In this document: positions 1 to 24,982 of the stretch, one piece after another
Layout of the letters: the number at the start of each line of letters is the position of its first letter
Position numbering within the stretch: the stretch's first letter is position 1
IMG/VR virus record: IMGVR_UViG_3300007734_000538
Coordinates: 1 to 27,293 of that record
Strand: one strand, 5' to 3'
DNA: 27,293 nt
Source of the DNA: a virus
The notes under the pieces: generated by a model
Databases searched by the model: none
What the model saw: only the letters and a program-made list of their open reading frames with translations
Told to the model about the DNA's origin: nothing
Position numbers and translations under genes: made by a program

Positions 1-2
1 AG

Positions 3-155: not shown

Positions 156-179
156 GAATAAAGAAAAGGGGCTAACACA

Positions 180-437: not shown

Positions 438-604
438 TGGGGCGCGGTAGTTTTGGTTACCTGGTTGCACAGCTAGCCGTTGAGACGGGAATCGCGCCCC
501 AGTATTTACTCGACCTTGATACACAGATGTTTAAGAATATATTAAAAGTTCTTAACGATAAAGCTAAGGAGCAGCAAAATGCCCAACGTAGAAATAAGAG
601 GTAA
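180..604 (+). CDS. Tail assembly chaperone, long form by -1 frameshift (gpGT-like), genome A
   Basis: A second open frame in -1 continues from the end of the short form. Shifting at the proline codon (C CCT TCG, 425-431) reads CCC TTC GCA and stays open to the TAA at 602-604. The added part ends with a stretch (GIAPQYLLDLD and a basic tail) that matches the -1 extension in genome B (GIAPQQLLDLD, ending SRRR). Both extensions overlap the next gene by exactly 26 nt. The extension has no good start codon of its own. The site is a poorer slippery heptamer than the CCCTTTA in genome B because the A-site codon is TCG, so the exact slip may be a P-site event. Confidence 0.72.
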
Positions 605-3046: not shown

Positions 3047-4284
3047 CAGTACCAATAATTAACGCTGTTATTAACTTTAGTACTGGGCCTAGCTTTGCTC
3101 AGGCGATGATTTTAGACAGCGGCATATTAGGCACCAATATCCTGGCCGATGCAGCTAGCGTTATTGTGGACGTATCAAACGTAGTAGATAGTATTGAGAC
3201 AAAGCGCGGGCGTAACCCTCAGGCTGACCAATTCCAAACGGGTAGCCTTACTATGCGTATCGTTGACCAAAACGGTGATTTTAACCCACAAAACCCAGCC
3301 AGCCCGTATTACAATTTATTAACGCCTATGCGTAAAGTGCAGATTACTGCTACATACGGGGCAACTACTTACCCTATTTTTGCTGGCTTTATTACTAGCT
3401 ATACAACTACTACACCTAAAAATGCTAATGACGTGGTTTACACGGTTCTAACCGCCGTGGACGCTTTTAGGCTTGCACAAAATGCACAGATCAGTACCGT
3501 AGCGGGCACCTCAGCAGGGCAACTTAGCGGTGCAAGAATTAACGCCTTGTTAGATGCTATTAACTGGCCAGCAACGATGCGTGATGTGGATACGGGCCTC
3601 ACCACTATGCAGGCAGACCCTGAAGGCACAGCCCGCACAAGCCTTGCAGCTATGCAAACGGTAGAGACTAGCGAGTATGGCGCCCTATATGTGGATGCCG
3701 CTGGCTCGTTTGTTTTTCAAGATCGCGCAGTTACCGCTGGCAGTAGTGGCCGTACACCTGTAGTTTTCAACGATAACGGCTCAGGTATTGGTTACTTTAA
3801 TGCGGTATGGCGCCTTGACGATACGCTAGTTTATAACTCAGCCAGTATCACCCGTACAGGTGGCACAGCCCAGGTAGCCATAAACCAAGCCAGCATAGAT
3901 AAGTACTTTGTGCATAGTTACAACCAACAAAACCTGCTAATGCAAACCGATGCTGTGGCCCTGGACTATGCACAAGCATACGTAGCATCTAGGGCTGAAA
4001 CCTCTATACGATGCGATGCTATTCAGCTAGACCTTTATACAGATAGTTACACAGCTGGCACCGTTGCAGCGCTAGGCCTTGACTACTTTGATCCTGTAAC
4101 TATTACAACTAACCAACCTGGGGGTTCAACCCTTACTAAGACTTTGCAGGTGTTTGGCGTGGCTCAAAGCATTACGCCTAACAGCTGGAAAACAACACTT
4201 ACCACTTTAGAGCCAATTATTGACGGCTTTATATTAGACTCAGCAATATACGGCTTGCTTGACAGCGGCGTATTAAGTTATTAA
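3043..4284 (+). CDS. Distal tail / minor tail protein, genome A
   Basis: This 413-residue protein follows the tape measure gene with an ATGA overlap and equals its genome B counterpart (18922-20163) in length, though the two have diverged widely. It has the look of baseplate hub or distal tail proteins: a beta-rich N-terminal part with ITATYGATTYPIFAGFITSY (compare VFGGTVSDF in B), a middle part with ESxxGALYVDAAGSFVFQDR (B: LGTLYEDKQGRVSYADADHR), and a beta-rich end. Such proteins link the tail tube to the fibres. No enzymatic motif was seen. The role is inferred from gene order and the conserved pair. Confidence 0.65.
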   Translation: MTVPIINAVINFSTGPSFAQAMILDSGILGTNILADAASVIVDVSNVVDSIETKRGRNPQADQFQTGSLTMRIVDQNGDFNPQNPASPYYNLLTPMRKVQITATYGATTYPIFAGFITSYTTTTPKNANDVVYTVLTAVDAFRLAQNAQISTVAGTSAGQLSGARINALLDAINWPATMRDVDTGLTTMQADPEGTARTSLAAMQTVETSEYGALYVDAAGSFVFQDRAVTAGSSGRTPVVFNDNGSGIGYFNAVWRLDDTLVYNSASITRTGGTAQVAINQASIDKYFVHSYNQQNLLMQTDAVALDYAQAYVASRAETSIRCDAIQLDLYTDSYTAGTVAALGLDYFDPVTITTNQPGGSTLTKTLQVFGVAQSITPNSWKTTLTTLEPIIDGFILDSAIYGLLDSGVLSY

Positions 4285-4295
4285 GGAGCAATAAA

Positions 4296-4901
4296 ATGGC
4301 AGCTGGACTAGGTTTTAAGACCTTTACTACTGGCGAGGTACTTACGGCAGCTGACACTAACGGCTACCTAATGCAAGGCGTGTTGGTGTTTGCCTCATCC
4401 GCGGCACGATCTGCAGCTGTGACCTCACCACAAGAGGGGCAATACTCATACCTTAAAGATACAAACAGTACTGAATATTATGACGGTAGCGCCTGGGTGG
4501 CAGCGCCCGTAGGTGATATAACAGCCGTGACTACAGCCGTAACCTCAGGCCTTACAGGCGGTGCTAGCAGCGGTGACGTAGCCCTATCTCTATTGCTTAA
4601 TTTCAATGCTCAAACTGGTACTACTTATACCCTGGCATCTACTGACCTTAACAAGTTAGTAACTACATCTAATGCCTCAGCTGTAACTGTGACCGTGCCA
4701 CCTAGCGTATTTAGTGCAGGGCAACAGATTAACGTGCAAAGCATAGGCGTAGGTCTTACCTCTTTTGCGCAAGGTTCCGGTGTAACGATTACCTCAACAG
4801 GTGCAGTATCTACAGCCCCAGTACTACGCGCTCGTTATTCAGCTGCCACAGTTATATGCACAGGTAGCAATACGTTTACTATTGTGGGCGACCTGAGCTA
4901 A
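4296..4901 (+). CDS. Tail fibre / adhesin-like protein, genome A
   Basis: This 201-residue Ser/Thr/Ala/Val-rich protein looks like a fibre or spike: repeated short beta segments such as AVTVTVPPSVF and GVTITSTGAVS, and almost no Cys or charged clusters. The N-terminal part (FTTGEVLTAADTN) resembles the start of many phage fibre proteins that attach to the tail. A strong AAGGAG ribosome site lies upstream of the ATG. It is followed by three related fibre-tip genes. The genome B gene at the same place (20163-21011) joins an N-terminal fibre part to a tip-like domain, so genome A may have split these roles into separate proteins. Confidence 0.55.
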   Translation: MAAGLGFKTFTTGEVLTAADTNGYLMQGVLVFASSAARSAAVTSPQEGQYSYLKDTNSTEYYDGSAWVAAPVGDITAVTTAVTSGLTGGASSGDVALSLLLNFNAQTGTTYTLASTDLNKLVTTSNASAVTVTVPPSVFSAGQQINVQSIGVGLTSFAQGSGVTITSTGAVSTAPVLRARYSAATVICTGSNTFTIVGDLS

Positions 4902-5470
4902 TGGCCCCAATTTTAGGCATTTTAGCAAGTGCCAATTATCCGAGAGTAACTAGCTCTTATGAGTCTATTGCTACAACTACAATTGGAAGTGGTGGAGCAT
5001 CTACCATTACCTTTAGCAGCATCCCTAGTACATATACGCATTTACAAGTGCGCTATTTAGCCCGCACAAATAGAGCAGATGTTCAAGATTTAATCCGCTT
5101 TAGATTTAATTCTGATAGTGGTACAAATTACGCCTATCACTGGTTGCGCGGTGACGGTGCTACTGCCGATGCAAGCAACGCATCTTCAACTGCTTCTCCG
5201 TGGACGGCTATTATTGCTGGCGGTAATGCTTCTGCAAGCCAATTCGGAGCAGGTGTCAGTGATGTACTTGATTATAAAAATACTAATAAATACAAAACAA
5301 CACGAACATTAAGCGGTGTTGATACTAACAGTGCAGATGGACGTATTATGTTTTTAAGTAATCTATGGATGAATACCGCTGCTATTACATCTATTGAAAT
5401 TGCACCTAATTATGGAACTTCTTTTAATCAATACTCATCCTTTGCCCTATACGGAATTAAGGGAGCATAA
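4901..5470 (+). CDS. Receptor-binding / fibre-tip paralogue 1, genome A
   Basis: First of three adjacent paralogues. It has 189 residues, with an N-terminal extension that the other two lack. Shared landmarks in order: TFSSI-S-YT-L, then F-N-D--NY, R--GDG/GNG, then LW-NTAAI-SI, and finally S-F-LYGI near the C-terminus. This is a beta-sandwich-like, Ser/Thr/Asn-rich pattern typical of small receptor-binding domains. The ATG overlaps the upstream stop by one base. The three genes look more AT-rich than the tail genes before them. Function as a receptor-binding protein is inferred from position and repetition; no family name is claimed. Confidence 0.55.
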   Translation: MAPILGILASANYPRVTSSYESIATTTIGSGGASTITFSSIPSTYTHLQVRYLARTNRADVQDLIRFRFNSDSGTNYAYHWLRGDGATADASNASSTASPWTAIIAGGNASASQFGAGVSDVLDYKNTNKYKTTRTLSGVDTNSADGRIMFLSNLWMNTAAITSIEIAPNYGTSFNQYSSFALYGIKGA

Positions 5471-5472
5471 CA

Positions 5473-5973
5473 ATGGCTGCTGGATCTACATACACTCCCT
5501 TAGCAACACAGACTCTAAGCTCTGCTGCTGCAACTGTTACATTTTCTAGCATTTCAGCGGCTTACACAGATTTAGTATTGGTATTTGCTGGTACAACTGT
5601 TACGACTGCTAATAATTTATCTTTGCAATTTAATGGCGATACTGCTAGTAACTATTCAATGACCCGTATAAGAGGAAATGGCACTACCGCAAGTTCAGCT
5701 CGTTTCACAAGTCAAATTTTAATGCTTGGGCCTAACATTGATATTACATCTACAACAATTTCTCCTGTTATTTGGCAAATACAAAACTATTCCAATACGA
5801 CTACATATAAAACTGCTTTGGCAAGAGGTGGTGGTTCTGATTCAGAAACGGCGGCGATTGTTGGATTGTGGAGAAATACTGCCGCAATTAATCAAGTGGT
5901 TGTTCTTGTCAATGGAAGCCAAAATATAGCCTCTGGCTCAACCTTTACACTCTATGGAATCGCGGCTGCATAA
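5473..5973 (+). CDS. Receptor-binding / fibre-tip paralogue 2, genome A
   Basis: Second paralogue, 166 residues, starting 2 nt after the first. It keeps the TFSSISAAYTDL start, FNGDTASNYS, RGNG, LWRNTAAINQV and FTLYGIAAA landmarks, but the middle has diverged strongly from its neighbours. Loss or change in the middle with conserved ends is what one expects if the edges form the fold and the centre contacts the host surface. A GGGAG stretch precedes the ATG. Confidence 0.55.
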   Translation: MAAGSTYTPLATQTLSSAAATVTFSSISAAYTDLVLVFAGTTVTTANNLSLQFNGDTASNYSMTRIRGNGTTASSARFTSQILMLGPNIDITSTTISPVIWQIQNYSNTTTYKTALARGGGSDSETAAIVGLWRNTAAINQVVVLVNGSQNIASGSTFTLYGIAAA

Positions 5974-6476
5974 TGCCTAATACATATACTTTAATTGCAT
6001 CTAATACTTTATCTTCAAGTGCTGGATCAGTTACTTTTAGCTCTATCGCATCTACTTATACGGATTTACTCGTAAAAGTTAGCTCACGCACAGACAACAC
6101 AGATACTCCTATTTACATTTATTTTAATTCTGACACGACTAATGCTAATTATTCCGTGCGCAGAGTTTTGGGTAGTGGCTCTGCTGCATCATCAGGTTCA
6201 TTTTCAGCCCCTTATGTAATTTATGCCGATGTCTCCACTTATACTGCTAGTACTTTTGGTAATGCTGAGGTTTATATTCCCAATTATTTAGGCTCTAGCA
6301 ATAAATCAATGTCCATTGATTCTGTCAATGAAAATAATGCAACAGGAGCAGAGGCGGTTTTAACGGCAGGCCTTTGGTCAAATACCGCTGCAATTACATC
6401 TATTAAGTTTCAACCATTAACGGGTAATTTTGCTACTTACTCAACCTTTTACCTCTACGGCATCAAGAACTCATAA
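5973..6476 (+). CDS. Receptor-binding / fibre-tip paralogue 3, genome A
   Basis: Third paralogue, 167 residues, overlapping paralogue 2 by one base (TAATG). It has TFSSIASTYTDL, FNSDTTNANYS, RVLGSG, LWSNTAAITSI and FYLYGIKNS at the matching places. It is closest to paralogue 1 in the C-terminal third (NTAAITSI in both). It ends the fibre cassette; the small coiled-coil gene follows. The three could form a heteromeric tip or be alternatives kept side by side; the sequence does not decide. Confidence 0.55.
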   Translation: MPNTYTLIASNTLSSSAGSVTFSSIASTYTDLLVKVSSRTDNTDTPIYIYFNSDTTNANYSVRRVLGSGSAASSGSFSAPYVIYADVSTYTASTFGNAEVYIPNYLGSSNKSMSIDSVNENNATGAEAVLTAGLWSNTAAITSIKFQPLTGNFATYSTFYLYGIKNS

Positions 6477-6484
6477 GGAGAAAT

Positions 6485-6700
6485 ATGACTACAGCAATCG
6501 AAATCAACTGCGAGACAGGCGAAGTAATCGAGCGTGAACTAACTGCCGATGAATTGGCACAGCGTGAGGCCGATGCTCAAGCTGCCGAGGCAGAAAAGGC
6601 AGCCAACGACAAAGCCGCAGCTGACAAAGCTGCAGCGCGCCAGGCCGTCTATGCAAAGCTCGGACTAAGTGCCGATGAAATCGCAGCCCTTGCAGACTAG
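6485..6700 (+). CDS. Small coiled-coil protein next to fibre genes, genome A
   Basis: A 71-residue protein with a beta-like start (INCETGEVIERELTADE), a long Ala/Glu/Lys helix and an end of the type AKLGLSADEIAALAD. The genome B protein at 21011-21229 has the same three parts (ATGEEIEREMTAEE, helix, AKLGITAEEAKLLLG). Small proteins of this form are often found directly after fibre genes in actinophages and other phages; their role is not established, and fibre folding is one possibility. A strong AAGGAG ribosome site lies just upstream. Confidence 0.65.
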   Translation: MTTAIEINCETGEVIERELTADELAQREADAQAAEAEKAANDKAAADKAAARQAVYAKLGLSADEIAALAD

Positions 6701-7157
6701 CTACAACGGTTGGCCAGCATCTAAGGATCAGGCCGAGATAGGCATTAAGGCCTACGCAGTAGAGGGCACAAGCCTTAAACTGCGTTGCGCCGAGACGGTA
6801 GCGCCGTTGCTGATTAACTTTGCTAAAGAGTTTAACGAGCTAATAGAGCCGCTAGAGGGCGGGGCGCTAGATGACTGGGGCTACTGCTACCGTATGGTGC
6901 GAGGCACTACCGACAAAATTAGTAACCACAGTAGCGGCACAGCTATAGATCTCAATGCCTCAAAACACCCGCTAGGTCAGTTAGGTACTTTTGATGCTGC
7001 AAAGGTGCCAATGCTTAGAGCGCTGGCTCATAAGTACGGCCTGACCTGGGGCGGGGATTACAAAAGCCGTAAAGATGAGATGCACTTTGAGATAGCACTA
7101 AGCCCTGAAAAGGTCAGGGCGTTAATTACAAAGTTAGGATTAGAAAATGCCAACTAG
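6675..7157 (+). CDS. Endolysin, VanY-type M15 D,D-carboxypeptidase/endopeptidase, genome A
   Basis: A 160-residue peptidase that would cut the peptide part of the cell wall at lysis. The zinc site of family M15 is visible: SNHSSGTAID (His85 and Asp92 counted from the ATG at 6675) and DEMHFEI (Asp134, His137). There is no separate cell-wall binding domain or signal peptide. The start is uncertain: GTG at 6669, ATG at 6675 and TTG at 6690 are all in frame and overlap the upstream gene; I chose the ATG. The holin-like genes follow shortly after. The lysin at the same place in genome B (21226-21654) carries a different arrangement of the M15-like motif and is at best a distant relative. Confidence 0.8.
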   Translation: MKSQPLQTSYNGWPASKDQAEIGIKAYAVEGTSLKLRCAETVAPLLINFAKEFNELIEPLEGGALDDWGYCYRMVRGTTDKISNHSSGTAIDLNASKHPLGQLGTFDAAKVPMLRALAHKYGLTWGGDYKSRKDEMHFEIALSPEKVRALITKLGLENAN

Positions 7158-7404
7158 CGCACAGGTAAGCGTAGGCGCAACTGCCACAGTATTAGTAGCT
7201 GCAACAGGCTTTGACCAAACCGTATGGCTGCATAACTCAGGCGGCGGTGTGGTTTATATTGGAGCTGCAAACGTCTCAACTACAAACGGTTATAAGCTAG
7301 ATAATGGCGATAAAATGGAGTTACCAGTAGGCGATAATGAGGGCCTTTACGGCGTTACCACATCAGGCACTAACACGGTGTGCGTACTCAAACAAATCAA
7401 CTAA
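7147..7404 (+). CDS. Small beta-rich protein of unknown function, genome A
   Basis: An 85-residue protein with alternating Val/Thr strands (VSVGATATVLVAATG), HNSGGGVVYIG and a closing CVLKQIN. It looks like a small beta-barrel or jelly-roll domain of the sort used in decoration or fibre proteins. It overlaps the lysin gene by 11 nt and has no counterpart at the same place in genome B. No catalytic motif or signal peptide is visible. It could be a structural add-on; I do not recognise a named family. Confidence 0.5.
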   Translation: MPTSAQVSVGATATVLVAATGFDQTVWLHNSGGGVVYIGAANVSTTNGYKLDNGDKMELPVGDNEGLYGVTTSGTNTVCVLKQIN

Positions 7405-7422
7405 GGGCACTAAGGAGCAATA

Positions 7423-7614
7423 ATGAATAAAAAAGCGATAACAGCTGCCCTGTACTCTTATGGCCGTGCAGCTTTAGCAAGCGTAGCCGCGCTTTATATG
7501 TCAGGTATTACTGACCCTAAAGTATTGGCTAACGCCCTTGTAGCAAGCCTTATAGCCCCTATTCTCAAAGGCATTGACCCTAAGGAAAAACAGTTTGGCT
7601 TAGGCGCTAAGTAA
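7423..7614 (+). CDS. Holin-like small membrane protein, genome A
   Basis: A 63-residue protein with two hydrophobic stretches, about residues 12-27 (AALASVAALYM) and 33-48 (VLANALVASLIAPIL), and a Lys-rich end. Size, two membrane spans and position directly after the lysin are as in r1t-like actinophage holins, which open the membrane at lysis. It corresponds in position to the 48-residue protein at 21651-21797. A strong AAGGAG site lies upstream. A holin call from sequence alone is always tentative. Confidence 0.6.
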   Translation: MNKKAITAALYSYGRAALASVAALYMSGITDPKVLANALVASLIAPILKGIDPKEKQFGLGAK

Positions 7615-7829
7615 TGAATCAGGCCCAGTCATATGTAGCTTTGCTATTGGGGATAGCAACGCTGAGTGGCTTTATGGCTGGGCTTGTTAGACACCTTGTT
7701 AAGTACTACCTGGCTGAGTTAAAGCCTGACGGTAACGGGGGCCATAATTTAAGGGGGCGCGTAGATCGTATAGAGCAGCGCGTTGACAAGATTTACGAGA
7801 TGCTCTTGGAGGACAGGTTAGCCAAGTAG
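7614..7829 (+). CDS. Second lysis-cassette membrane protein with coiled coil, genome A
   Basis: A 71-residue protein with one membrane span near residues 8-30 (VALLLGIATLSGFMAGLV) followed by a charged helix (DRIEQRVDKIYEMLLEDR). It overlaps the holin-like gene by one base. Genome B has the same design at 21794-21943, with RLNQRVDEIYNILLER at the end, so the pair is conserved. One transmembrane helix plus a short coiled coil fits a holin partner or lysis regulator. Confidence 0.55.
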   Translation: MNQAQSYVALLLGIATLSGFMAGLVRHLVKYYLAELKPDGNGGHNLRGRVDRIEQRVDKIYEMLLEDRLAK

Positions 7830-7933
7830 GGCGTGTCGCGTTGCCTTTTGTCGGTGGGTGGGTTCATACTTTAACCACACGCTGAGAGGGCTACTCAGGT
7901 AGTAGCTTTATCGGCCTTAACAAAGGGCGAAAG
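7830..7933 (+). promoter_or_regulatory. Intergenic region before the early genes, genome A
   Basis: This is one of the few real gaps in genome A and separates the lysis cassette from the early genes. A possible promoter is TTGCCT near 7845, about 18 bases before CATACT near 7866. A short inverted repeat GCTACT-caggt-AGTAGC at 7890-7906 is followed by TTTAT and could be a weak terminator or a leader hairpin. The matching region of genome B is 22912-23012. No sequence is shared between the two, so the promoter call is weak. Confidence 0.35.
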
Positions 7934-8095
7934 ATGAACAGTTTAGATTTAATGGTAGTAGGTATGCTGTGTTTGTTTGTTGGTTTATTTATTTATGCAG
8001 CTTACGAGATTGGCTACAAAGTAGGCCTGGGTGAAGGTTACCTACGTGGCCGTAATATTGCTAAGGCGCTACGTGAACACGAGGCCTCTAAATGA
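7934..8095 (+). CDS. Small single-span membrane protein, genome A
   Basis: A 53-residue protein with an N-terminal membrane span (MVVGMLCLFVGLFIYAAY) and a basic cytoplasmic tail (GLGEGYLRGRNIAKAL). The genome B gene at 23013-23162 has the same plan: span, then KGFNEGKREGLVVAK. The shared G-x(2-3)-EG-x-R pattern after the span supports homology. It is the first gene of the early block and overlaps the next one by ATGA. Function unknown. Confidence 0.6.
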   Translation: MNSLDLMVVGMLCLFVGLFIYAAYEIGYKVGLGEGYLRGRNIAKALREHEASK

Positions 8096-8694
8096 GTAAT
8101 TTTCTTGAAGGATACGAGGACGTTAACGCCAGGATTATTAGGGCGCGGGCCGAGTACCCAACTTTGCGTTTAGTGGCATATATTGAGGATATAGACATAA
8201 CAAAAGGTTATATTCTTGTTAAAGGTGAAGCCTACAAAAACTACGAGGATGAAAAGCCAAGCGCTGTTGATTATGCCTTTGAGATGCGTTCAGATCGTGG
8301 TGTAAACCTCCATTTTTGGGTAGAAAATGCGATTACCAGCTGCTACGGGCGCGTTATAGGCCTATTAACACCAGGCGGTATTGCCAGGAGTACAAAGCAA
8401 GATATGGAAAAGGTAGAGGCGTTAAGCGCTAAAGATGTAGCGCCAGTAAGTGATGATCTGTGGGCTACTACACCCGTAGCACAAACCATAGAGGCAGTTA
8501 AAAATGAGCTAGGCGGTGTTTACCTACAAGGCAAACCTGAGTGCATCCACGGGGCACGGGTATGGCGAGAGGGTGTAAGTGCCAAGACCAACAAAAAATG
8601 GGGCAATTACAGCTGTATCGAAAAGAGCAAGGCAACACAATGTGAGCCAGTTTGGTATATGCAGACCTCAACAGGTTGGGCGCCACAAGTATGA
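8092..8694 (+). CDS. Single-strand annealing protein-like early protein with C-terminal zinc-binding part, genome A
   Basis: A 200-residue homologue of the protein at 23423-24085. The N-terminal half has DRGVNLHFWVENAITSCYGR, matching the DRGVNATSALENCETSAIGR stretch of genome B; ExCETSAIGRAL-type segments occur in Rad52/ERF-type phage annealing proteins, so a recombination role is likely but not certain. After a linker (DDLWATTPVAQ, matching DYWTTPVGQ) comes a C-terminal part with CxHG-x(4)-WREG, then W..Y.C and a last C before VWY, which looks like a zinc-binding domain. The genome A copy has lost the ETSAIG signature, so it may have drifted in function. Confidence 0.5.
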   Translation: MSNFLEGYEDVNARIIRARAEYPTLRLVAYIEDIDITKGYILVKGEAYKNYEDEKPSAVDYAFEMRSDRGVNLHFWVENAITSCYGRVIGLLTPGGIARSTKQDMEKVEALSAKDVAPVSDDLWATTPVAQTIEAVKNELGGVYLQGKPECIHGARVWREGVSAKTNKKWGNYSCIEKSKATQCEPVWYMQTSTGWAPQV

Positions 8695-8882
8695 GCGATC
8701 AATACGAGCTAATAAACCTGCAGGCGATGACAGGCAAACTCTTTATAGACGGTGAGCTAGCAGCTGAGTACAAGGTTGAACAATGCGACAAATGCGCTAT
8801 GGTCACGCAGTTAGATCAGTTTGGCTATCAAAAGAGCGACCCTAAAGAAAATATCATATGGTTTTGCAAAGGTTGCCGATGA
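8691..8882 (+). CDS. Small zinc-ribbon protein, genome A
   Basis: A 63-residue protein that starts at an ATGA overlap with the upstream gene. It has EQCDKCAMVTQ and ends WFCKGCR, giving a CxxC...CxxC zinc ribbon. The protein at 24087-24287 in genome B has INCQLCNE and WQCRKCKAVNG at the same places and follows the same gene. Function unknown; nucleic-acid binding is a reasonable guess. Confidence 0.6.
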   Translation: MSDQYELINLQAMTGKLFIDGELAAEYKVEQCDKCAMVTQLDQFGYQKSDPKENIIWFCKGCR

Positions 8883-9265
8883 TAGAAAACGAGCAAGAGC
8901 TGTTTAATTACATCAAAGGTTGGTATTTGAGCGATTTAGAAAAGAGCAAAGACCAATACGACAGCCACGACTGCACCAGTACAATTTATAGGCTACATAT
9001 AGAGCTAAAGTGCAGGCATACGCATTACGATGAGCTAATCCTGGAGCGCGATAAATACGAGGCGCTGACACAAGAGGCCGAGCGCCTGGGCTTTACGCCG
9101 TTTTATGTCAATGCCACACCTAAGGGCATCTACGCCTTTAATCTTAAGAAAACTAAAGTTACGTGGACGGTTAAAAAACTGCCTGCCAAGACAGAGTTTG
9201 ATAGCGAGGGCCAGGTTGATAAGACCGTGGCCCTTTTGCCTGTTGCCGAGGCGGTGCAGCTATGA
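8879..9265 (+). CDS. PD-(D/E)XK-like nuclease, genome A
   Basis: A 128-residue protein starting at an ATGA overlap. The segment YDSHDCTSTIYRLHIELKCR has an acidic residue followed by a strand with E-L-K, the hallmark of the PD-(D/E)XK nuclease core, and is followed by a helix with charged residues and FYVNATPKGIYAFNL strands. Short proteins of this type act as resolvases or restriction-like nucleases. The genome B gene at 24365-24844 is also a candidate of this fold but is not clearly homologous, so the same job may be done by different genes. Confidence 0.45.
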   Translation: MIENEQELFNYIKGWYLSDLEKSKDQYDSHDCTSTIYRLHIELKCRHTHYDELILERDKYEALTQEAERLGFTPFYVNATPKGIYAFNLKKTKVTWTVKKLPAKTEFDSEGQVDKTVALLPVAEAVQL

Positions 9266-9423
9266 GTGAGTCAATACGTTTTGAGTGCCGCAGTTGTAAG
9301 AAAATCACAGCGCAGATAGAGCGCATAGTTACAGATAACCTGCCTGAAAACGTTAAGGTTTTACAATGCACAGTATGTAGCAAAATGAGTGTTTGCTTGT
9401 TGGTTACTTATGCCGATGTATGA
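9262..9423 (+). CDS. Small zinc-ribbon protein, genome A
   Basis: A 53-residue open frame that begins at an ATGA overlap with the nuclease-like gene and ends at TGA 9421-9423. It has FECRSCKKIT near the start and LQCTVCSKM near the end, a CxxC...CxxC zinc ribbon. Exact coupling to the upstream gene and the two Cys pairs support a real gene. No counterpart was seen at the same point in genome B, though both genomes have several small zinc-ribbon genes here. Confidence 0.5.
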   Translation: MSESIRFECRSCKKITAQIERIVTDNLPENVKVLQCTVCSKMSVCLLVTYADV

Positions 9424-9577
9424 ATATGAGTGCGTAGCTTGTAATATTCGTTGCGAATTTGAGCGATCCATACACGATGTAAACGTACCTATGTGCTGTG
9501 GCTTTGCTATGCGCCAAGTGTACGGGTCAATCGGTGCCATATTCAGGGGCACAGGTTGGGGCAAGGATGCTAAATAG
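9410..9577 (+). CDS. FmdB-like zinc-ribbon protein, genome A
   Basis: A 55-residue protein with the FmdB-type pattern: MPMYEYECVAC at the start, CCGFAMRQVYG in the middle and a Gly-rich end (GAIFRGTGWG). FmdB-like proteins are small putative regulators with a CxxC...CxxC-type zinc ribbon. The genome B protein at 24766-24939 has MPAYDYRCKQC, CTYCNEPMVKV and FKGKGFYS at the same points. The ATG at 9410 gives the typical start. The stop TAG lies directly before the paired DnaA boxes in both genomes. Confidence 0.7.
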   Translation: MPMYEYECVACNIRCEFERSIHDVNVPMCCGFAMRQVYGSIGAIFRGTGWGKDAK

Positions 9578-10046
9578 TTATCCACAGGAGTTATCCACAG
9601 GGGCTAATAACTGTGGAAACACGCCCAACACTACGCTCAAAGTTGCGCGGTGTTTGACACTACCGCTAGCATCACAACTCGCTGGCGAGCCGCTGAGGCG
9701 GATAGCTCGCGGGCGATGTTTGGTGCTTTTGGGCGTGCTTTGTTTAATTGGGATTACGCCAGCAAAAGCTTACGATCCAAACGTAGAGAGCTATAAGTTA
9801 TATGCTCATATGAAGTTATCTAATGATAAGCAATATAGATGCTTAGTTATATTGTGGCGTAGTGAGAGCCAATGGAACCCTAAGGCAAAGAATCATAAGA
9901 GCAGCGCATACGGCATACCTCAGCTATTAAAGATGACAGAGACCAATCCATATAAGCAGATAGACTTAGGCATTAAATATATTATTAAACGTTATGTTAA
10001 TCCTTGTGCAGCTTTAGATCATCATAAGAAAGTAGGGCATTACTAA
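9567..10046 (+). CDS. Membrane-targeted lysozyme-like (APF-type/SLT) muralytic enzyme, genome A
   Basis: A 159-residue protein if it starts at the ATG 9567, which overlaps the FmdB-like gene by 11 nt; the start is uncertain. A basic stretch (EPLRRIARG, 41-49) precedes a hydrophobic segment (residues 51-63) ending in TPAKAYD, which reads as a signal peptide with a long N-region. The mature part has the lysozyme-like pattern of aggregation-promoting-factor C-terminal domains: YRCLVILWRSESQWNPKA with the likely catalytic Glu100, then AYGIPQ and YIIKRYVNPCAAL. It would cut cell-wall glycan outside the membrane. Genome B has the same gene at 24983-25438. It is separate from the M15 lysin, so a role in DNA entry or spread is also possible. 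Confidence 0.7.
   Translation: MLNSYPQELSTGANNCGNTPNTTLKVARCLTLPLASQLAGEPLRRIARGRCLVLLGVLCLIGITPAKAYDPNVESYKLYAHMKLSNDKQYRCLVILWRSESQWNPKAKNHKSSAYGIPQLLKMTETNPYKQIDLGIKYIIKRYVNPCAALDHHKKVGHY
9572..9602 (+). other. Paired DnaA boxes, candidate replication origin, genome A
   Basis: Two perfect DnaA boxes TTATCCACA, in direct repeat, lie at 9578-9586 and 9591-9599, 13 bp apart. The 31-nt block from AAATAG to GGG matches 24934-24964 in 30 of 31 positions, although in genome A it lies inside the lysozyme reading frame and in genome B between genes. That makes a DNA-level function likely. Neither genome encodes a recognised initiator, helicase or polymerase, so loading of host replication proteins by DnaA is the simplest reading. 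Confidence 0.65.
9685..9710 (+). other. Conserved stem-loop in the lysozyme leader, genome A
   Basis: GCGAG (9685-9689) pairs with CTCGC (9706-9710), and inside it CCGC (9690-9693) pairs with GCGG (9698-9701) around a TGAG loop, leaving a short bulge on the 3' side. The same two-stem shape occurs at 25072-25101 in genome B, where the inner stem is CCCC/GGGG, so one inner base pair is exchanged with pairing kept. It lies in the coding part for the basic stretch before the membrane segment. Confidence 0.4.
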
Positions 10047-10376
10047 GTGAAGGCTAAAGACCCTAGAGATAACAGGCGCTATAAGGCTAGGCGCTTACAG
10101 GTGCTAAACGCCGGCGGCTGGGTGTGTTATTACTGTGGCCAAGAGGCTAGCCAGGTTGACCACGTAATTCCTATAGCTAGTGGTGGTGACCCTATGAGTC
10201 TAGACAACCTTGTGCCTGCCTGTAAGCGATGCAATCTTAGTAAGGGTAAGAAGTCACAGGGGCTTTTTTTAGCCACAGCGGACACCCCCCCTGTCTTTCT
10301 CGACTATATCTCCCCGATGCAGTCCGAACCGATGCTGGACAGTCCGTTTAAGACCCGACCCAGTCCAGACCAATGA
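10047..10376 (+). CDS. HNH endonuclease, genome A (3' end from genome B)
   Basis: A 109-residue HNH nuclease that starts with GTG one base after the lysozyme stop. Key residues are CYYC (27-30), DHVIP (38-42), NL (54-55) and CKRCN, giving the zinc-bound HNH core. HNH proteins directly before the large terminase are common in cos phages and take part in cutting at cos together with terminase. The C-terminal tail (TPPVFL then DSPF) is shared with the second copy at 25429-25767 and spans a conserved DNA block. The codon style changes from A to B within this tail, so the gene is a hybrid of the two genomes. Confidence 0.85.
   Translation: MKAKDPRDNRRYKARRLQVLNAGGWVCYYCGQEASQVDHVIPIASGGDPMSLDNLVPACKRCNLSKGKKSQGLFLATADTPPVFLDYISPMQSEPMLDSPFKTRPSPDQ
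10260..10298 (+). other. Candidate cos site, A|B junction
   Basis: Two blocks in the HNH 3' end match the second HNH gene: GGGCTTTTTTTA (10260-10271; 11 of 12 identical) and ACCCCCCCTGTCTTT (10284-10298; 15 of 15). Their spacing is identical in both copies and corresponding bases are 15,382 bp apart. Third codon positions are kept here (ACC CCC CCT GTC TTT), unlike in the rest of the gene, so the DNA itself seems to be constrained. Upstream looks like genome A, downstream like genome B. Position beside HNH and terminase fits a cos site. The cut position and overhang cannot be read from the sequence. Confidence 0.55.
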
Positions 10377-10437
10377 CAACTAAGCCCAGAAAGTCCAAAG
10401 CCCTACGAGGGGCAACCAAGCCAAGGCTTCACAGTCC
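10320..10437 (+). repeat. CAGTCC iterations after the candidate cos site
   Basis: CAGTCC occurs at 10320, 10340, 10361 and 10432, with a near copy AAGTCC at 10391. Spacings of 20, 21, 30 and 41 are close to whole helical turns. The copies fall in different reading frames, so they are not a peptide repeat. At the second site one copy lies at 25703, the same distance from the C-run (22 against 21 bases), and GGACTC (25719) is the opposite-strand form. They could be terminase binding sites of a cosB type. Confidence 0.4.
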
Positions 10438-11797
10438 ACTTCTCAAGGGCGAAAACAAGCTGCAAGATGTCAAAGACCTATGTGACATCGTAAAGATGCC
10501 CTTGATGCCATGGCAGGAGTTTGTCCTCAAGGACATGCTCACTGTGGACAAGAAAGGCATGTGGATTCGTAAAACAAACCTCATTCTCGTAGCTAGACAG
10601 AACGGAAAGACGCATCTGGCGCGTATGTTGATTTTGGCTCACTTGATTAAGTGGAATACCAATGTCCTAATTATGAGCTCTAACAGAAGCATGGCTTTAG
10701 ACACCTTCCGACAAGTAACTCACCTACTGGAGACCAATGACCACCTTAAAGGATTCGTCAAACAGATCAGACACGCCAACGGCACTGAGTCAATTGAGAT
10801 GCTCTCTGGAGCAAGGCTCGATGTTGTTGCAGCAACTAGAGACGGCTCTCGCGGTCGATCAGTCAATGGATTGCTCTACATCGATGAAGTCCGAGAGATC
10901 ACAGAAGATGGATTTAGAGCTGCTACTCCTACAACTAGAGCTCACCCAAACTCTCAGACGCTTCTTACCTCTAATGCAGGAGACGCTTTCAGCACTGTAC
11001 TCAACGACCTACGAGAAAGAGCCATCGACTACCCGCCCAAGTCTTTTGGATTCTATGAATACTCAGCTCCTCAATACTGCAAGATAACCGATCGCGATGC
11101 ATGGGCTCTGGCTAACCCCTCTTTGGGATACACCATCACAGAAGAAGCGATTGAAGAAGCGATTGCTACTTCGCCGATTGAAAACACGCGCACAGAGACT
11201 CTTTGCCAATGGATCGATTCGTTAAGCAGTCCTTGGCCTCATGGAATCTTAGAAGATACCAGCGATTCAGAGCTTGAAATGTCCGTTGGGGCTTATACTG
11301 TATTCGGTTTCGATGTCAGTCCTTCACGCAGGAACGGATCATTGGTCGCAGGACAACTTCTTCCAGATGGAAGGATTGGCATCGGGATTCTAGAGACCTA
11401 CAGCTCGCAAGTTGCCATCGATGAGTTAAAGATGGCAGCTTCTATCAAGGCTTGGTGCGACATCTATAAGCCAAGGCTTGTTACCTTTGACAAGTACGCA
11501 ACCCAGACAATTGCAGACCGCTTAGCCAATGCTGGAGTTATGGTCGAGGATGTTTCAGGGCAGCAGTTCTACAAAGCCTGTGGAGATCTCTTAGAAGGCT
11601 TGGTCAATCATCGAGTCGTTCACAATGGGATGGAAGAATTGATCCAGCAGATGAATAACTGTGCAGCCAAGGTCAATGATTCAGCTTGGCGCATTATCAA
11701 GAGAAAGAGTGCTGGAGATATCTCAGCTCCTATTGGTCTGGCAATGGTCGTAAGCAAGTTAATGCTTCCAGTGGCTAAGCCACAAATATATGCCTAG
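10373..11797 (+). CDS. Terminase large subunit, genome B
   Basis: The 474-residue packaging motor. The ATPase part has Walker A ARQNGKT (residues 74-80), Walker B LLYIDE (Asp171, Glu172) and a TSNAG coupling motif; the C-terminal nuclease part begins near FGFDVSPSRR (about 310) and includes FDKYATQT. It starts at an ATGA overlap with the HNH gene. It aligns nearly throughout with the genome A copy at 25757-27193, making it among the best conserved genes of the pair. No small terminase gene was found on either side; the HNH protein or an unrecognised small protein may fill that role. Confidence 0.93.
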   Translation: MTTKPRKSKALRGATKPRLHSPLLKGENKLQDVKDLCDIVKMPLMPWQEFVLKDMLTVDKKGMWIRKTNLILVARQNGKTHLARMLILAHLIKWNTNVLIMSSNRSMALDTFRQVTHLLETNDHLKGFVKQIRHANGTESIEMLSGARLDVVAATRDGSRGRSVNGLLYIDEVREITEDGFRAATPTTRAHPNSQTLLTSNAGDAFSTVLNDLRERAIDYPPKSFGFYEYSAPQYCKITDRDAWALANPSLGYTITEEAIEEAIATSPIENTRTETLCQWIDSLSSPWPHGILEDTSDSELEMSVGAYTVFGFDVSPSRRNGSLVAGQLLPDGRIGIGILETYSSQVAIDELKMAASIKAWCDIYKPRLVTFDKYATQTIADRLANAGVMVEDVSGQQFYKACGDLLEGLVNHRVVHNGMEELIQQMNNCAAKVNDSAWRIIKRKSAGDISAPIGLAMVVSKLMLPVAKPQIYA

Positions 11798-11849
11798 ACA
11801 CACCTTGATTGGTATGTCAAATACTTGACATGTGCTACCATTTATGTCT
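11798..11849 (+). promoter_or_regulatory. Late promoter with palindromic operator before portal, genome B
   Basis: A perfect inverted repeat ATGTCAA-atac-TTGACAT lies at 11814-11831. It is followed by TGC-TACCAT (TACCAT 11836-11841), an extended -10 type element, exactly 14 bases before the ATG at 11850. In genome A the -10-like TATAAA is also exactly 14 bases before the portal ATG. No Shine-Dalgarno sequence precedes either ATG, so a leaderless or nearly leaderless transcript is likely. The palindrome would be a natural repressor or activator site. Confidence 0.5.
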
Positions 11850-12971
11850 ATGGGTCGCATATTGCAAACATTCGGGCTAGAACCTAAGCCACAATTACAA
11901 GCTCAGTCCGCACCTCAGGTGCTTGGCGAGTATTCACCTTATGCGATGCCTTTCCAATATGCATTTATTGGTAGAGAAGAAGCTCTCAGTGTTCCAGCAT
12001 TGATGCGTTGTCGCAATTTACTCTGTGGAACTATTGGAGCAATTCCTTTAGAGCTTTACAAGAAATCCACTAATGAAGAACTTGGCTCACCAGCATGGTT
12101 AGAGCAACCTTCATATTCACAGCCACGATCAGTGACAATTGCTTTCACTGTTGAATCGTTGCTCCTATATTCGCAAGCCTTCTGGAAAGTGGTTGAAGTT
12201 TATTCTGAGGACGGACGCCCTTCTCGCTTTGAGTGGATCGCTAACAATCGCGTAACTGCAACTCTAGATAGCACTAACACTTTTGTTAAATCTTACGCAG
12301 TTGATGGAATGACTTTACCGATGGATGGTTTAGGAAGTTTAGTAACTTTCCAATCTTTGCTTCCTGGTATTCTCAGTACTGGAGTCCAAACAATTCGCGC
12401 TGCTATTGATGTTCAGAAAGCAGCATCGATTGCAGCTGCTACTCCAATGACAACTGGTTTCATTCAGAACTCAGGTGCTGATCTTCCACCGGCAGAAGTT
12501 CAAGGATTATTAGCGGCTTGGAAGAAAGCCCGCATGAATAACTCTACTGCTTACCTTACAAGCACTTTAGATTATAAGACTGTTGGATTCTCACCTAAAG
12601 ACATGATGTACAACGAGGCAATCCAGAATCTTGCAACTGAAATTGCCCGCTTGTGCAATGTTCCAGCAATCTATGTCTCAGCAGATCAGAACTCAAGTTA
12701 CACATATCAGAATGTAAATGATGAGCGCAAGCAATTCTTAACGCTATCTCTACAGCCTTTCATTACAGCAATCGAAGATCGCCTATCAATGGATGACATT
12801 ACTGCTCGCGGTAATGTTGTTAAGTTCGATATCGATAAGAACTTCTTGCGTACTGACCCACTGCAAGAGCTTGCAGTAATTGAAAAACTCCTAGCCCTAA
12901 ATCTTGTTACTCAGGAACAGGCTATGGAAATGACAGATCTAACACCTAACGGAAGCAATGGTCTAGAATGA
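11850..12971 (+). CDS. Portal protein, genome B
   Basis: A 373-residue HK97-type portal, forming the ring at the capsid vertex through which DNA is packaged. Seen in order: ALMRCRNLLCGTIGAIPLELY (an early helix typical of these portals), LLLYSQAFWKVV, and the C-terminal part with LCNVPAIYVSADQNSSYTYQN and KFLTLSLQPFITAIEDRLS-like residues. I chose the ATG at 11850 because its MGRILQTFG start matches MGLLSALGI of genome A; ATG 11844 is possible. It ends with an ATGA overlap with the protease-capsid gene. Confidence 0.9.
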   Translation: MGRILQTFGLEPKPQLQAQSAPQVLGEYSPYAMPFQYAFIGREEALSVPALMRCRNLLCGTIGAIPLELYKKSTNEELGSPAWLEQPSYSQPRSVTIAFTVESLLLYSQAFWKVVEVYSEDGRPSRFEWIANNRVTATLDSTNTFVKSYAVDGMTLPMDGLGSLVTFQSLLPGILSTGVQTIRAAIDVQKAASIAAATPMTTGFIQNSGADLPPAEVQGLLAAWKKARMNNSTAYLTSTLDYKTVGFSPKDMMYNEAIQNLATEIARLCNVPAIYVSADQNSSYTYQNVNDERKQFLTLSLQPFITAIEDRLSMDDITARGNVVKFDIDKNFLRTDPLQELAVIEKLLALNLVTQEQAMEMTDLTPNGSNGLE

Positions 12972-14518
12972 ACCAAGTAATTACCTTCTCAGCTGATCTA
13001 ACAGCAGATTCAGCAAGTCGCACAATCTCAGGCAAGATCGTGCCTCTTAATGTTGAAGCAGGATCTACAAATATGGGCAAGGTAATCTTTGCCTCTGGAT
13101 CTATTGAGATTCCAGATCCTAAGTCAATCAAGTTGCTTAATCAGCATGACATCAAGAAGCCTCTCGGACGCGGAGTAACTTTCAGCGAGTCAGAAGATGC
13201 GATTCACGCAGTATTCTCTATTAGTCGCTCACAGCGCGGTACAGAAGCTCTTATCCTTGCAGAAGAAGGATTGCAAAGCGGTCTGTCAATCGGTGCAGAA
13301 GTCCTCAAGTCAAAGATCAAGGACGGCATTACATATGTTTCTGCTGCTCGCTTGGTCGAAGTAAGTTTAGTAACCGAGCCAGCATTTAAATCTGCTCAGG
13401 TTACTGATATTGCAGCAGAAGAATCTGCTGTAGAAGAACCAACCCAACCAACAGAAAGCGAGACAGCCATCGTGGAAGAAACCACTTCAGCAGTCGAAGC
13501 AACACCAGTTGAAGCACCAGCGGTCGAAGCTGCTCGCCCAACTGTATCAGCAGCATACTTTACAAAGCCACGCATTGAAATCACTGCAGCTAAGTATGCA
13601 GAGAACACAATCCGCGCAGCACTAGGCGATGAGTCAGCTCGTCAATACCTACGCGCAGCGGATGACACTTCGGACAATAGCGGTTTGGTGCCCACCCGCC
13701 AGCTCCAAGAAATCATCAACCCATTGGGTACAACAATCCGTCCATCAATCGAAGCAATCTCACGCGGAGTGCTTCCAGATGCAGGTATGACATTCGAGAT
13801 CCCAAAGATCACAGCAATGCCAACAGTTGCAATCACAGCAGAAAACGCAGCATTCTCAGACACAGACCAGAACTCATCATTCTTGTCAGTAGATGTTAAG
13901 AAGTATGCAGGACAGCAGACATTCTCTGTTGAATTGCTAGATCGTACATCTCCAGCATTCTTTGATGAGCTAGTCCGCAACATGGGAGCAGCTTACGCAA
14001 AGGCTACAGATGCAGCAGTTAACGCAGCACTTATCGCAGGTGCAACAGCAGACGGAACAACCACAACAACATACCCAACAGCTTCAGAGTTGCTAGGAAT
14101 TGTTGCTCGCGGTTCAGCTTCTGTTTACAACGCAACACTAGGCTTGCCTAACCCATTCGCTCGCAACATGATCGTTAACACATCACAGTGGTCAAACATC
14201 ATGACACTCAACGACAATGGACGCCCAATTTACACAGCAACAAACCCAATGAACGCTGGCGGATCAGTTGTTCCTACAGCTCTACAGGGTAATGTCGCTG
14301 GTCTCAACCTCTATGTAACACCAAACACAGCTTCAGGTACAGACACAGACGGATCAATCGTCATTGTTAACCCAGATGCTTACACATGGTATGAGTCACC
14401 TAACTACCGCTTGCGCGCAGAATCAACTGCAGCAGGTTCAATCACAATCGGTTACTACGGCTTTGGCGCAATCGCGACTAAGGTCGGAGCAGGTGCATTC
14501 AAGAACAACAAGGCGTAA
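12968..14518 (+). CDS. Prohead protease fused to major capsid protein, genome B
   Basis: A 516-residue protein combining two head functions. Residues 1-145 are a prohead protease of the HK97 (S78) kind with LNQHD (His60) and GLSIGAE (Ser107), the probable catalytic pair. Residues 150-190 are an acidic Glu/Thr/Ala/Pro linker resembling a scaffold or delta domain. From about 195 on it is an HK97-fold capsid protein (SGLVPTRQLQEII, AISRGVLPDAG, PNPFARNMIVN, YYGFGAIATKVGAGAF). The protease would cut itself free at maturation. Such fusions are known in small actinophages. The gene uses many A- and C-ending codons (gca, aca, tca, atc), as expected for a highly expressed gene. Confidence 0.9.
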   Translation: MNQVITFSADLTADSASRTISGKIVPLNVEAGSTNMGKVIFASGSIEIPDPKSIKLLNQHDIKKPLGRGVTFSESEDAIHAVFSISRSQRGTEALILAEEGLQSGLSIGAEVLKSKIKDGITYVSAARLVEVSLVTEPAFKSAQVTDIAAEESAVEEPTQPTESETAIVEETTSAVEATPVEAPAVEAARPTVSAAYFTKPRIEITAAKYAENTIRAALGDESARQYLRAADDTSDNSGLVPTRQLQEIINPLGTTIRPSIEAISRGVLPDAGMTFEIPKITAMPTVAITAENAAFSDTDQNSSFLSVDVKKYAGQQTFSVELLDRTSPAFFDELVRNMGAAYAKATDAAVNAALIAGATADGTTTTTYPTASELLGIVARGSASVYNATLGLPNPFARNMIVNTSQWSNIMTLNDNGRPIYTATNPMNAGGSVVPTALQGNVAGLNLYVTPNTASGTDTDGSIVIVNPDAYTWYESPNYRLRAESTAAGSITIGYYGFGAIATKVGAGAFKNNKA

Positions 14519-14532
14519 GCCCATTTAAGTCG

Positions 14533-14570
14533 CTCTGAGGGGTAGTAGCCCTCTACCCCTCAGAGTCTTT
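14533..14570 (+). terminator. Strong hairpin after the capsid gene, genome B
   Basis: A 13-bp perfect stem, CTCTGAGGGGTAG (14533-14545) with CTACCCCTCAGAG (14553-14565), with a 7-base loop and followed by TCTTT. It sits in the short gap between the capsid and connector genes. It looks like a partial terminator or an RNA-stabilising hairpin that would raise capsid output over downstream genes. The T run is short, so full termination is unlikely. Confidence 0.6.
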
Positions 14571-14584
14571 AGAAAGGATTGCAC

Positions 14585-15148
14585 ATGGCACTTACAACAG
14601 TCGCAGAACTCCGCGCAACACTCGGAGTCGGTACTTTGTATCCAGACGCAACCCTTCAAGAAGTCTGTGATAGTACGGATGTAGTCCTTCTGCCTATGCT
14701 TTGGCAGAACGAGCTTTACAATACCCATCAAAGTCTCACAAATAATGTGGCAACTCTTTATTTCAATGAAAGTATTTCTAAATACTTCTATGTTGGTCAG
14801 AGCATAACGATCACAAAGAATGGAAGCCCTTATAACGGCACAAAGACAATCACTGCAATTGGTGTTAATTCGCTTTCTTATGCTGCAACTGGAGCAGATC
14901 AAAGCATTCATGCAGTACAACCTTTTGGCACTGTGTCAGGTTCAGCAACTGATTATTCAACTGATACAGCAGTCCAGCAAGCAGCTTTAATGATATCTGT
15001 TGAGATCTGGCAAGCGCGTACAGCCACCCTTTCAGGCAGTAACGCTGTCGATTTCCAGCCAAGCCCTTACCGAATGAGCGCACAGCTTCTCGCTAAGGTG
15101 CGAGGATTGATCGCACACGCGCTAAGCCCTAATTCGATGGTGGGATAA
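14585..15148 (+). CDS. Head-tail connector protein (gp6-like), genome B
   Basis: A 187-residue protein following the capsid hairpin. The start ALTTVAELRATLGVG, then LYPDATLQEVCDSTDVVLLPML, is typical of gp6-like connector (adaptor) proteins that bind under the portal. A middle beta-rich insert (YNGTKTITAIGVNSLSYAA) precedes the helical C-terminal part with IWQARTA and RGLIAHAL. The ATG at 14585 has AAAGGA 6 bases upstream. It overlaps the next gene by one base. Confidence 0.65.
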   Translation: MALTTVAELRATLGVGTLYPDATLQEVCDSTDVVLLPMLWQNELYNTHQSLTNNVATLYFNESISKYFYVGQSITITKNGSPYNGTKTITAIGVNSLSYAATGADQSIHAVQPFGTVSGSATDYSTDTAVQQAALMISVEIWQARTATLSGSNAVDFQPSPYRMSAQLLAKVRGLIAHALSPNSMVG

Positions 15149-15540
15149 TGCCTGTTGCCATCACTACTCTTAGAACTACATTAGCAACCGCACTAGTCGA
15201 TAACGCTAAGTGGCAGACTTTTGCCTTTCCACCAAGCACAGTCCTTGCTAACTCTGTAATCGTGTCTCCAGATGATCCTTATCTGACACCAAGCAACAAC
15301 CAACACATCACGATTAGCCCAATGGCTAACTTCAAGATCATCATGACAGTGCCACTTTTTGACAATGAGGGCAACCTTAACGGCATCGAGGACACAGTCT
15401 GTGGCGTGTTCGCAAAGCTCGCTGCATCATCTTTGACCTATAATGTAAGCGCAATAAGCGCACCAAGTATTCTCAACGCTGCATCGGGAGACCTTCTCAG
15501 CTGCGAGATGTCCGTATCAATCCTAACGAGTTGGAGCTAA
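15148..15540 (+). CDS. Head-tail joining / tail terminator-like protein, genome B
   Basis: A 130-residue protein placed between the connector and the tail tube genes. It has a helical start (LRTTLATALVDN), a strand-rich middle (ANSVIVSPDDPYL, ISPMANFKIIMTVPLFD) and SLTYNVSAISAPSIL near the end, the general pattern of tail terminator and joining proteins. The role is inferred from position and size. Confidence 0.5.
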   Translation: MPVAITTLRTTLATALVDNAKWQTFAFPPSTVLANSVIVSPDDPYLTPSNNQHITISPMANFKIIMTVPLFDNEGNLNGIEDTVCGVFAKLAASSLTYNVSAISAPSILNAASGDLLSCEMSVSILTSWS

Positions 15541-15542
15541 AC

Positions 15543-15644
15543 ATGTCCGAGTGGGAACAAGAAAACGCTGACTTCCTGAAGAAAATCGGGCAAGTAAGCA
15601 CACCAGCACCAAAGCCAGCATCTACTAAGAAAGACGAGGAATAA
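15543..15644 (+). CDS. Small Lys/Pro-rich peptide, genome B
   Basis: A 33-residue open frame beginning 2 bases after the previous stop and ending 4 bases before the tail tube gene. It reads MSEWEQENADFLKKIG and ends in a Pro/Ala/Lys tail with KKDEE. A GGAG stretch about 6 bases before the ATG and the tight fit between neighbours suggest it is translated. It may be a small structural or assembly peptide. Confidence 0.5.
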   Translation: MSEWEQENADFLKKIGQVSTPAPKPASTKKDEE

Positions 15645-15648
15645 TCTC

Positions 15649-16068
15649 ATGGCTGTATTTCTAAATAACAAAGTCGGTGTGAAGATTAACTCCGTTGATC
15701 TTTCAGACCATGTCACAGCAGTAACAATCAACCGCGTATTCGATGAGCTAGAAGTAACCGCAATGGGTGACTCATCACATAAGTTCGTTAAGGGTCTAGA
15801 GTCATCAACAGTGACAATTGACTTCCTCAATGACACAGCATCTGCAAATGTATTGGCAACACTACAAGCAGCCTGGGGTACAACTGTTACAGCAGTATTC
15901 CTACAGGAAAAGGGAACAGCAGTATCTGCTACTAACCCTCTTTACACTGTCTCACTACTAGTGAACAACACAACAGACATCAATGGTGCTGTTGGTGACA
16001 TTGGCACACAGTCAATCACATTTACTGCTAACTCAACTGTTGCAGTAACAACAACAGGCACATTCTAA
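15649..16068 (+). CDS. Major tail (tube) protein, genome B
   Basis: A 139-residue protein with a beta-rich pattern: VFLNNKVGVKINSVDLSDHV, AVTINRVFDELEVTAMGD and a C-terminal part LLVNNTTDINGAVGDIGTQS. The DELEVTAMGDSSHK stretch recalls tail tube proteins, where the loop before the second strand pair packs against the next ring. The C-terminal part is nearly the same as the fragment at 3-155. It has few rare codons, fitting a highly expressed structural gene. It directly precedes the tail chaperone gene. Confidence 0.75.
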   Translation: MAVFLNNKVGVKINSVDLSDHVTAVTINRVFDELEVTAMGDSSHKFVKGLESSTVTIDFLNDTASANVLATLQAAWGTTVTAVFLQEKGTAVSATNPLYTVSLLVNNTTDINGAVGDIGTQSITFTANSTVAVTTTGTF

Positions 16069-16091
16069 AAAACTAAACAAAGGGGCAAACC

Positions 16092-16349
16092 ATGGCAAGA
16101 CTAAAGATAGTTCGACAAGATGGAAGTGTACTAGAAGGCGAGATCACTCCAGCAGTGGAGTATGCCTTCGAGCAGTACGCTAAAAAGGGCTTCCATAAGG
16201 CGTTCCGCGATGAAGAAAAGCAAAGCGATGTCTACTGGTTAGCATGGGAAGTAACACGCAGGTCAGGTGAGTCTGTTAAGCCTTTCGGGATGGACTTCAT
16301 CGAAACCCTTAAATCGGTTTCGGTTGAGGATTCAGACCCTTTAGCTTAA
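16092..16349 (+). CDS. Tail assembly chaperone, short form (gpG-like), genome B
   Basis: An 85-residue protein the same length as the one at 180-437, with shared YAFEQYAKKGFHKAFRD and EKQSDVYWLAWE stretches. It ends EDSDPLA at TAA 16347-16349. The slippery sequence lies exactly 243 bases downstream of the start codon's first base, the same distance as in genome A, so the geometry of the site is kept. An AAAGGGG stretch lies upstream of the ATG. Confidence 0.82.
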   Translation: MARLKIVRQDGSVLEGEITPAVEYAFEQYAKKGFHKAFRDEEKQSDVYWLAWEVTRRSGESVKPFGMDFIETLKSVSVEDSDPLA

Positions 16350-16516
16350 AGCGCGATCTTCCATTCACCTATCTAATCGCTCGCTTGAGCATTAGATTGG
16401 GGATTGCGCCACAGCAGTTATTAGATCTAGACAAGATCATGCTCGATGCATTAGTGCAAGGGCTTAAAGATGAAGCAAAAGAGGTGAGCGATGCGAGTAA
16501 AAGTAGAAGGCGTTAA
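16092..16516 (+). CDS. Tail assembly chaperone, long form by -1 frameshift (gpGT-like), genome B
   Basis: At 16337-16343 the sequence is C CCT TTA in the reading frame, a canonical X XXY YYZ slippery heptamer. Moving back one base reads CCC TTT AGC and stays open to TAA 16514-16516, giving about 59 added codons with LGIAPQQLLDLD and a basic SKSRRR end. Genome A has a matching -1 extension. The extension overlaps the next gene by 26 nt in both genomes. This is the classical gpG/gpGT arrangement of long-tailed phages. Confidence 0.82.
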
Positions 16517-21943: not shown

Positions 21944-21950
21944 TTTTGCC

Positions 21951-24085: not shown

Positions 24086-24086
24086 C

Positions 24087-24964: not shown

Positions 24965-24982
24965 TAACAATAAGGAGACATT

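Follow-up and report, generated by a model that had tools for sequence, protein, structure and literature searches.

In lambda, the packaging site has the layout cosQ-cosN-cosB, with cosB on the side that is packaged first. In HK97, the HNH protein gp74 stimulates cos cleavage together with terminase and the DNA ends carry 3' overhangs (PMC9410871). Arthrobacter cluster AN phages have 11-base 3' cohesive ends (PMC5513430), and 13-base 3' ends have been published for Arthrobacter cluster AK (Korravirus; Pumancara, KU160661, and Joann). Freshwater 'miniphages' of ~15 kb, some of them predicted to infect Actinobacteria, are described by Kavagutti et al. 2019, where circular contigs were taken as complete (PMC6802176). 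A literature search for a cos site within an ORF returned no relevant paper; a 'wraparound gene' match concerned a circularly permuted mycobacteriophage and is thus not comparable.

The DNA analysed here (the window) is an entire IMG/VR record of 27,293 bp. The first-pass annotation had singled out a 15/15 identical block at the 3' ends of two HNH genes as a candidate cos site. Indeed, ACCCCCCCTGTCTTT occurs twice without a mismatch, at 10284-10298 and 25666-25680, and no more than these 2 matches are found in the window when up to two mismatches are allowed, against 0.01 expected; chance as the source of this repeat is excluded. The partner motif described with it, GGG(C/G)TTTTTTTA, lies at 10260-10271 and 25642-25653, separated from the block by a 12-base spacer at both copies. 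The two copies belong to two HNH-TerL modules in the same orientation, 15,382 bp apart. The original two-copy observation was an understatement: the arrangement, as the pattern TTTTTTA-N12-ACCCCCCCTGTC, is present in at least 120 IMG/VR contigs, which among the matches listed are mostly fragments or 15-18 kb long. We conclude, with a probability of roughly 95%, that the block is the cos site of a large family of uncultured tailed phages of ~15-16.5 kb with 13-nt 3' overhangs situated in the HNH ORF, and that the window is a mixed concatemer of such phages.

The proposed position of cos within the HNH gene is borne out in 170 of the 174 spanning sites: there, the reading frame identified from the CxxCN motif of HNH continues open across cos. 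HNH ORF 1 (10047..10376, plus strand; PF01844, E=1e-10) and HNH ORF 2 (25429..25767, plus strand; PF01844, E=8e-14) each run into a terminase gene on the same strand. The first of these encodes TerL of the phage that we call phage B (10373..11797; phrog_9, E=5e-62; Pfam TerL_nuclease/ATPase), its ATG overlapping the HNH stop (ATGA) at 10373, and the second encodes TerL of the right-hand neighbour of B (25763..27193), 58% identical to the other TerL. The HNH gene therefore adjoins both TerL and cos, as in systems of the HK97 gp74 type. Across the family, the HNH stop usually falls 25 codons past cos (118 of 174 sites), near or overlapping the TerL start, and the HNH domain (residues 26-69) lies wholly to the left of the cut.

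To the left of the overhang, the sequence T TTT TTA is in the HNH frame, encoding Phe-Leu (TTT TTA) within a T7A tract on the plus strand at 10264..10271 and 25646..25653. Conservation of this left half could reflect a programmed -1 frameshift signal, given that T TTT TTA is in frame in 163 of 172 HNH ORFs. However, no conserved -1 product follows, since the shifted frame stops after 1 to 50 codons, and after a single codon in 34 of the 163, while in Arthrobacter phage Decurro the HNH gene closes with a T6 tract near cos, which fits a cos element. We consider frameshifting improbable and take the tract as a probable part of the cos site. It is conserved in bases as well as codons: among 72 dereplicated sites holding the 13-mer, it is 93-99% T overall and 97-99% T at positions -21 to -18, and a conserved AC directly precedes the overhang in the left flank.

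The first-pass annotation had asked for virion DNA ends to be located by read-start pile-ups. With contig ends from independent metagenomes standing in as a proxy for such pile-ups, the ends fall at single bases on either side of a 13-mer. With a downstream anchor, 56 contigs have their start in the 60 nt upstream of it, 35 of them at a single base directly after CCCCCCTGTCTTT; with an upstream anchor, 40 contigs stop no more than 90 nt from it, 26 of them at a single base, ...TAC, directly before this 13-mer. For uniformly distributed ends, such clustering is bounded at <1e-38. In contigs anchored on TerL, 19 of 38 start exactly 74 nt before TerL, which is the same start, and its position is unchanged in relatives whose TerL identity ranges from 46% to 98%, among them carriers of overhang variants such as CCCCCCTGCCTTT. 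About one third of the contig ends near cos lie at other bases, as expected from incomplete coverage. Two further TerL contigs (L440 and L445) have unrelated sequence upstream of the start region, and are likely other assembly joins.

The 13-mer is absent from left-hand and right-hand contig ends alike. Blunting in library preparation removes 3' overhangs and fills 5' overhangs; bases missing from both sides therefore signify a 3' overhang of 13 nt. In the libraries 3300045999 to 46031, by contrast, the overhang is retained. Left pieces keep it and continue into a tail of only C and T in 13 of 15 cases (the exceptions being L236, with one A, and L104, with no tail); in two of these pieces (L021 and L087) the Illumina adapter AGATCGGAAGAGC follows the C/T tail, and in seven right pieces a purine tail is joined exactly to CCCCCCTGTCTTT. 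Low-complexity tails are typical of libraries made with the Accel-NGS 1S kit (PMC6612421), with which these samples, judging from their tails, appear to have been prepared. One contig of 16,048 bp (G023) has the overhang, with tails, at both ends and is thus a complete linear genome. Blunted and tailed libraries together place all four strand ends, and with them cut positions, overhang and polarity, and two-site contigs have periods of 15.3-16.9 kb, one genome length between sites. In the window, cosN copy 1 has its overhang CCCCCCTGTCTTT at 10286..10298 (plus strand), as given by contig ends and by tail junctions on both strands in relatives, with nicks at 10298/10299 (top) and 10285/10286 (bottom). 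By sequence identity and the evidence from relatives, cosN copy 2 has the identical 13-nt overhang at 25668..25680 (plus strand), with nicks at 25680/25681 (top) and 25667/25668 (bottom). Direct terminal repeats or headful (pac) packaging do not fit these single-base ends, which share only the 13-nt overhang.

Contigs might also end here as an assembly artefact, if the assembly graph branches at a block common to coexisting phages, and many phages in the same samples do have in common the block and some of its flanking sequence. Contigs that result from graph branching overlap in their shared words, yet here the same 13 bases are missing from either side, which leaves a gap instead of an overlap. 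Moreover, non-genomic tails and Illumina adapter sit at those very bases, and the ends are sharp to a single base across many samples and divergent sequences. We give this explanation very little credence, and retain physical DNA ends at cos as the origin of the contig ends.

On these coordinates the window comprises the right-hand part of one phage (A), at 1..10285 (plus strand), matched by two relatives (L114 and L055) that end at cos, followed by phage B, complete from cos to cos at 10286..25680 (plus strand; repeat period 15,382 bp), and then by the left end of another phage. A second contig, L206 (IMGVR_UViG_3300007735_000378), matches window positions 10265-21829 at 99.9% and also has a period of 15,382 bp, but its neighbours are a third phage's right end on the left and another phage's left end on the right. 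As a nearly identical unit occurs between two different sets of neighbours, B is a discrete unit. In a third contig (L149, 90% identical to B), the match to 21227-25708 runs straight into the match to 10260 onward, which is the native junction of B. Unlike neighbours meet at cos in other two-site contigs as well. The window is thus A, B and another phage joined through cohesive ends, not one virus. It could instead be a natural larger phage, or a tandem prophage, with two packaging modules: the record is single, 27,293 bp long, and its two module sets point the same way. Against this, L206 carries the 15,382-bp unit B at 99.9% identity with other phages on both sides, L149 links the right end of B directly to its left end, and a search of 84,980 genomes of bacteria and archaea gave one weak match (24%) and no close relative; we regard a single larger element as scarcely plausible.

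The joined-phage reading bears on the two HNH genes, which had been described as widely diverged. Their products are 40% identical over 114 columns, but because the window consists of phage pieces joined at cos, each HNH gene in it is chimeric. ORF 1 has its N-part from phage A and its last 25 codons from phage B, and ORF 2 its N-part from B and its C-part from the next phage. Besides the packaging module, phage B carries a fused prohead protease-capsid gene (12968-14518), as in Arthrobacter cluster AN phages, and, in its non-structural part, a metallophosphoesterase gene (22090-22911; phrog_221, E=3e-65). The public viral contigs L206, L088/L101, L289/L291 and L051/L145, each exceeding one unit in length, are composites of different phages joined at cos, and inflate genome sizes in databases.

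The element had been delimited at 10260-10298. A real signal is present there, but the functional element is longer and extends to ~10366. On the right, a cosB-like region on the plus strand (10310..10366) consists of CTCCCCGA followed by CAGTCC at 10320, 10340 and 10361. In flank profiles built from sites holding the 13-mer, the CTCCCCGA block extends to +19 after the overhang, and AGTCC clusters at +23, +43 and +63/64, with a spacing of 20 or 21, occurring 106 times in 75 dereplicated right flanks versus 9 times in shuffles. These repeats fall in different codon phases, and so they are not a protein repeat. By analogy with lambda, the T7A tract on the left is probably cosQ-like and the TCCCCGA and AGTCC repeats on the right probably cosB-like, the two acting as recognition elements. 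Farther left, ~700 nt from cos, lie paired perfect DnaA boxes (TTATCCACA) at window positions 9571-9602 and 24933-24964. Across the family, TTATCCAC is found within 1200 nt left of cos in 115 of 161 sites, at 1.11 per kb versus 0.05 per kb farther left, and the DnaA-box pair is a candidate replication origin using host DnaA.

How far the overhang itself is conserved was judged from loci fetched independently of it, by DNA patterns outside the block and by TerL. Of these loci, 118 had sufficient sequence on the left side of TerL, and 115 of the 118 contain the exact 13-mer CCCCCCTGTCTTT; its holders include phages with TerL identity as low as 46%, and more distant relatives have variants such as CCCCCCTGCCTTT at the equivalent place. 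A peptide pattern retrieved 91 HNH ORFs after dereplication, and in these the codons of the block are almost invariant (ACC in 91, CCC in 89, CCT in 91 and TTT in 91), as are the upstream Phe-Leu codons (TTT in 91, TTA in 87), and the Val codon is GTC in 81 and GCC in 8, these Val-to-Ala overhang variants having all other bases unchanged. Elsewhere in these HNH ORFs, CCC makes up 3% of Pro codons, ACC 10% of Thr codons and TTT 23% of Phe codons. The annotation had read the retained third codon positions as a DNA-level signal, to be abandoned if relatives kept the peptide TPPVF but varied its codons; in the 91 ORFs, relatives keep peptide and codons alike, the synonymous positions being frozen, and the signal is borne out. 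Judged by these counts, the block is constrained as DNA and not by its peptide alone. Conservation for the protein only, with TPPVF and GVFL as an HNH motif, agrees with a conserved peptide in frame in 170 of 174 sites, but is refuted by the codon counts and has next to no probability, since synonymous positions are frozen to codons rare elsewhere in the HNH ORFs, Val-to-Ala variants keep the remaining bases, and the AGTCC repeats recur in different codon phases.

We propose that terminase would place its top-strand nick directly after CCCCCCTGTCTTT and its bottom-strand nick 13 bases farther left, leaving 13-nt 3' overhangs and splitting the HNH ORF after codon ~84. The HNH protein and the adjoining TerL probably make both nicks, as proposed by analogy with HK97 gp74 and terminase, and packaging would start from the TerL end. 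In the virion, the HNH gene is divided between the genome ends, and is restored on annealing and ligation; on the linear virion DNA, transcription of the split gene would be expected to run off the end. Because the overhang is near-identical family-wide and its reading frame never varies, two different phages can join by their ends with the HNH ORF still intact. Mixed junctions may have formed in the test tube instead of in cells, which is favoured by the randomness of the neighbours, and, as a packaged unit remains bounded by cos at either end, such joints would not be inherited. It is conceivable, though on balance unlikely, that mixed concatemers arise in the cell, where the genomes of co-infecting phages would be joined and their chimeric HNH genes would stay intact; HNH synthesis would then be tied to a cleavable cos, because the HNH gene is complete only on joined DNA.

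With fixed and unique ends read from contigs, the exact genome ends of widespread, uncultured small freshwater phages can be established without culture, and a packaging site proves to be written within the codons of a gene. The near-universal sticky end accounts for composites like this record, which public databases list as a single virus of 27 kb, and leads one to expect many others; its 13 bases offer a handle for finding complete family members. It also raises a testable question, namely whether co-infecting phages of the family really join their genomes.

A search for DNA matches to the cos region among deposited phage records found none. The best cultured portal matches belong to Arthrobacter cluster AN. 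Decurrovirus of this cluster (Decurro, KT355471, 15,524 bp) has the same genome size and a fused protease-capsid, and the HNH gene is its last; the final HNH codons, close to the genome end, contain a T6 tract, similar to the arrangement here. However, the Decurro HNH gene stops 27 nt before the end, which leaves cos beyond the ORF, and its overhang and spacing are different. With only ~29% portal identity and no DNA match at cos, the family is not a close sequence relative of Decurrovirus. The best cultured TerL matches (~29% identity) are Arthrobacter phages too, cluster AK among them, whose 13-base ends equal the 13 nt found here and whose last gene is also HNH, 79 nt before the end; its genomes of 43 kb, unrelated overhang sequence and cos outside the HNH ORF set it apart. 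HK97 shares 3' overhangs and an HNH protein, but differs in the length and sequence of the overhang and uses a separate small terminase, of which none was recognised in unit B. The miniphages of Kavagutti et al. are alike in habitat and in size class, the family falling at their size peak, and from relatives and literature the host is likely to be freshwater Actinobacteria. The order cosQ-cosN-cosB of lambda is resembled as well, with AGTCC every ~20 nt on the TerL side as the candidate cosB. Thus, cos packaging with an HNH protein and terminase is already known, and what is unusual here is a cos site inside the HNH ORF.
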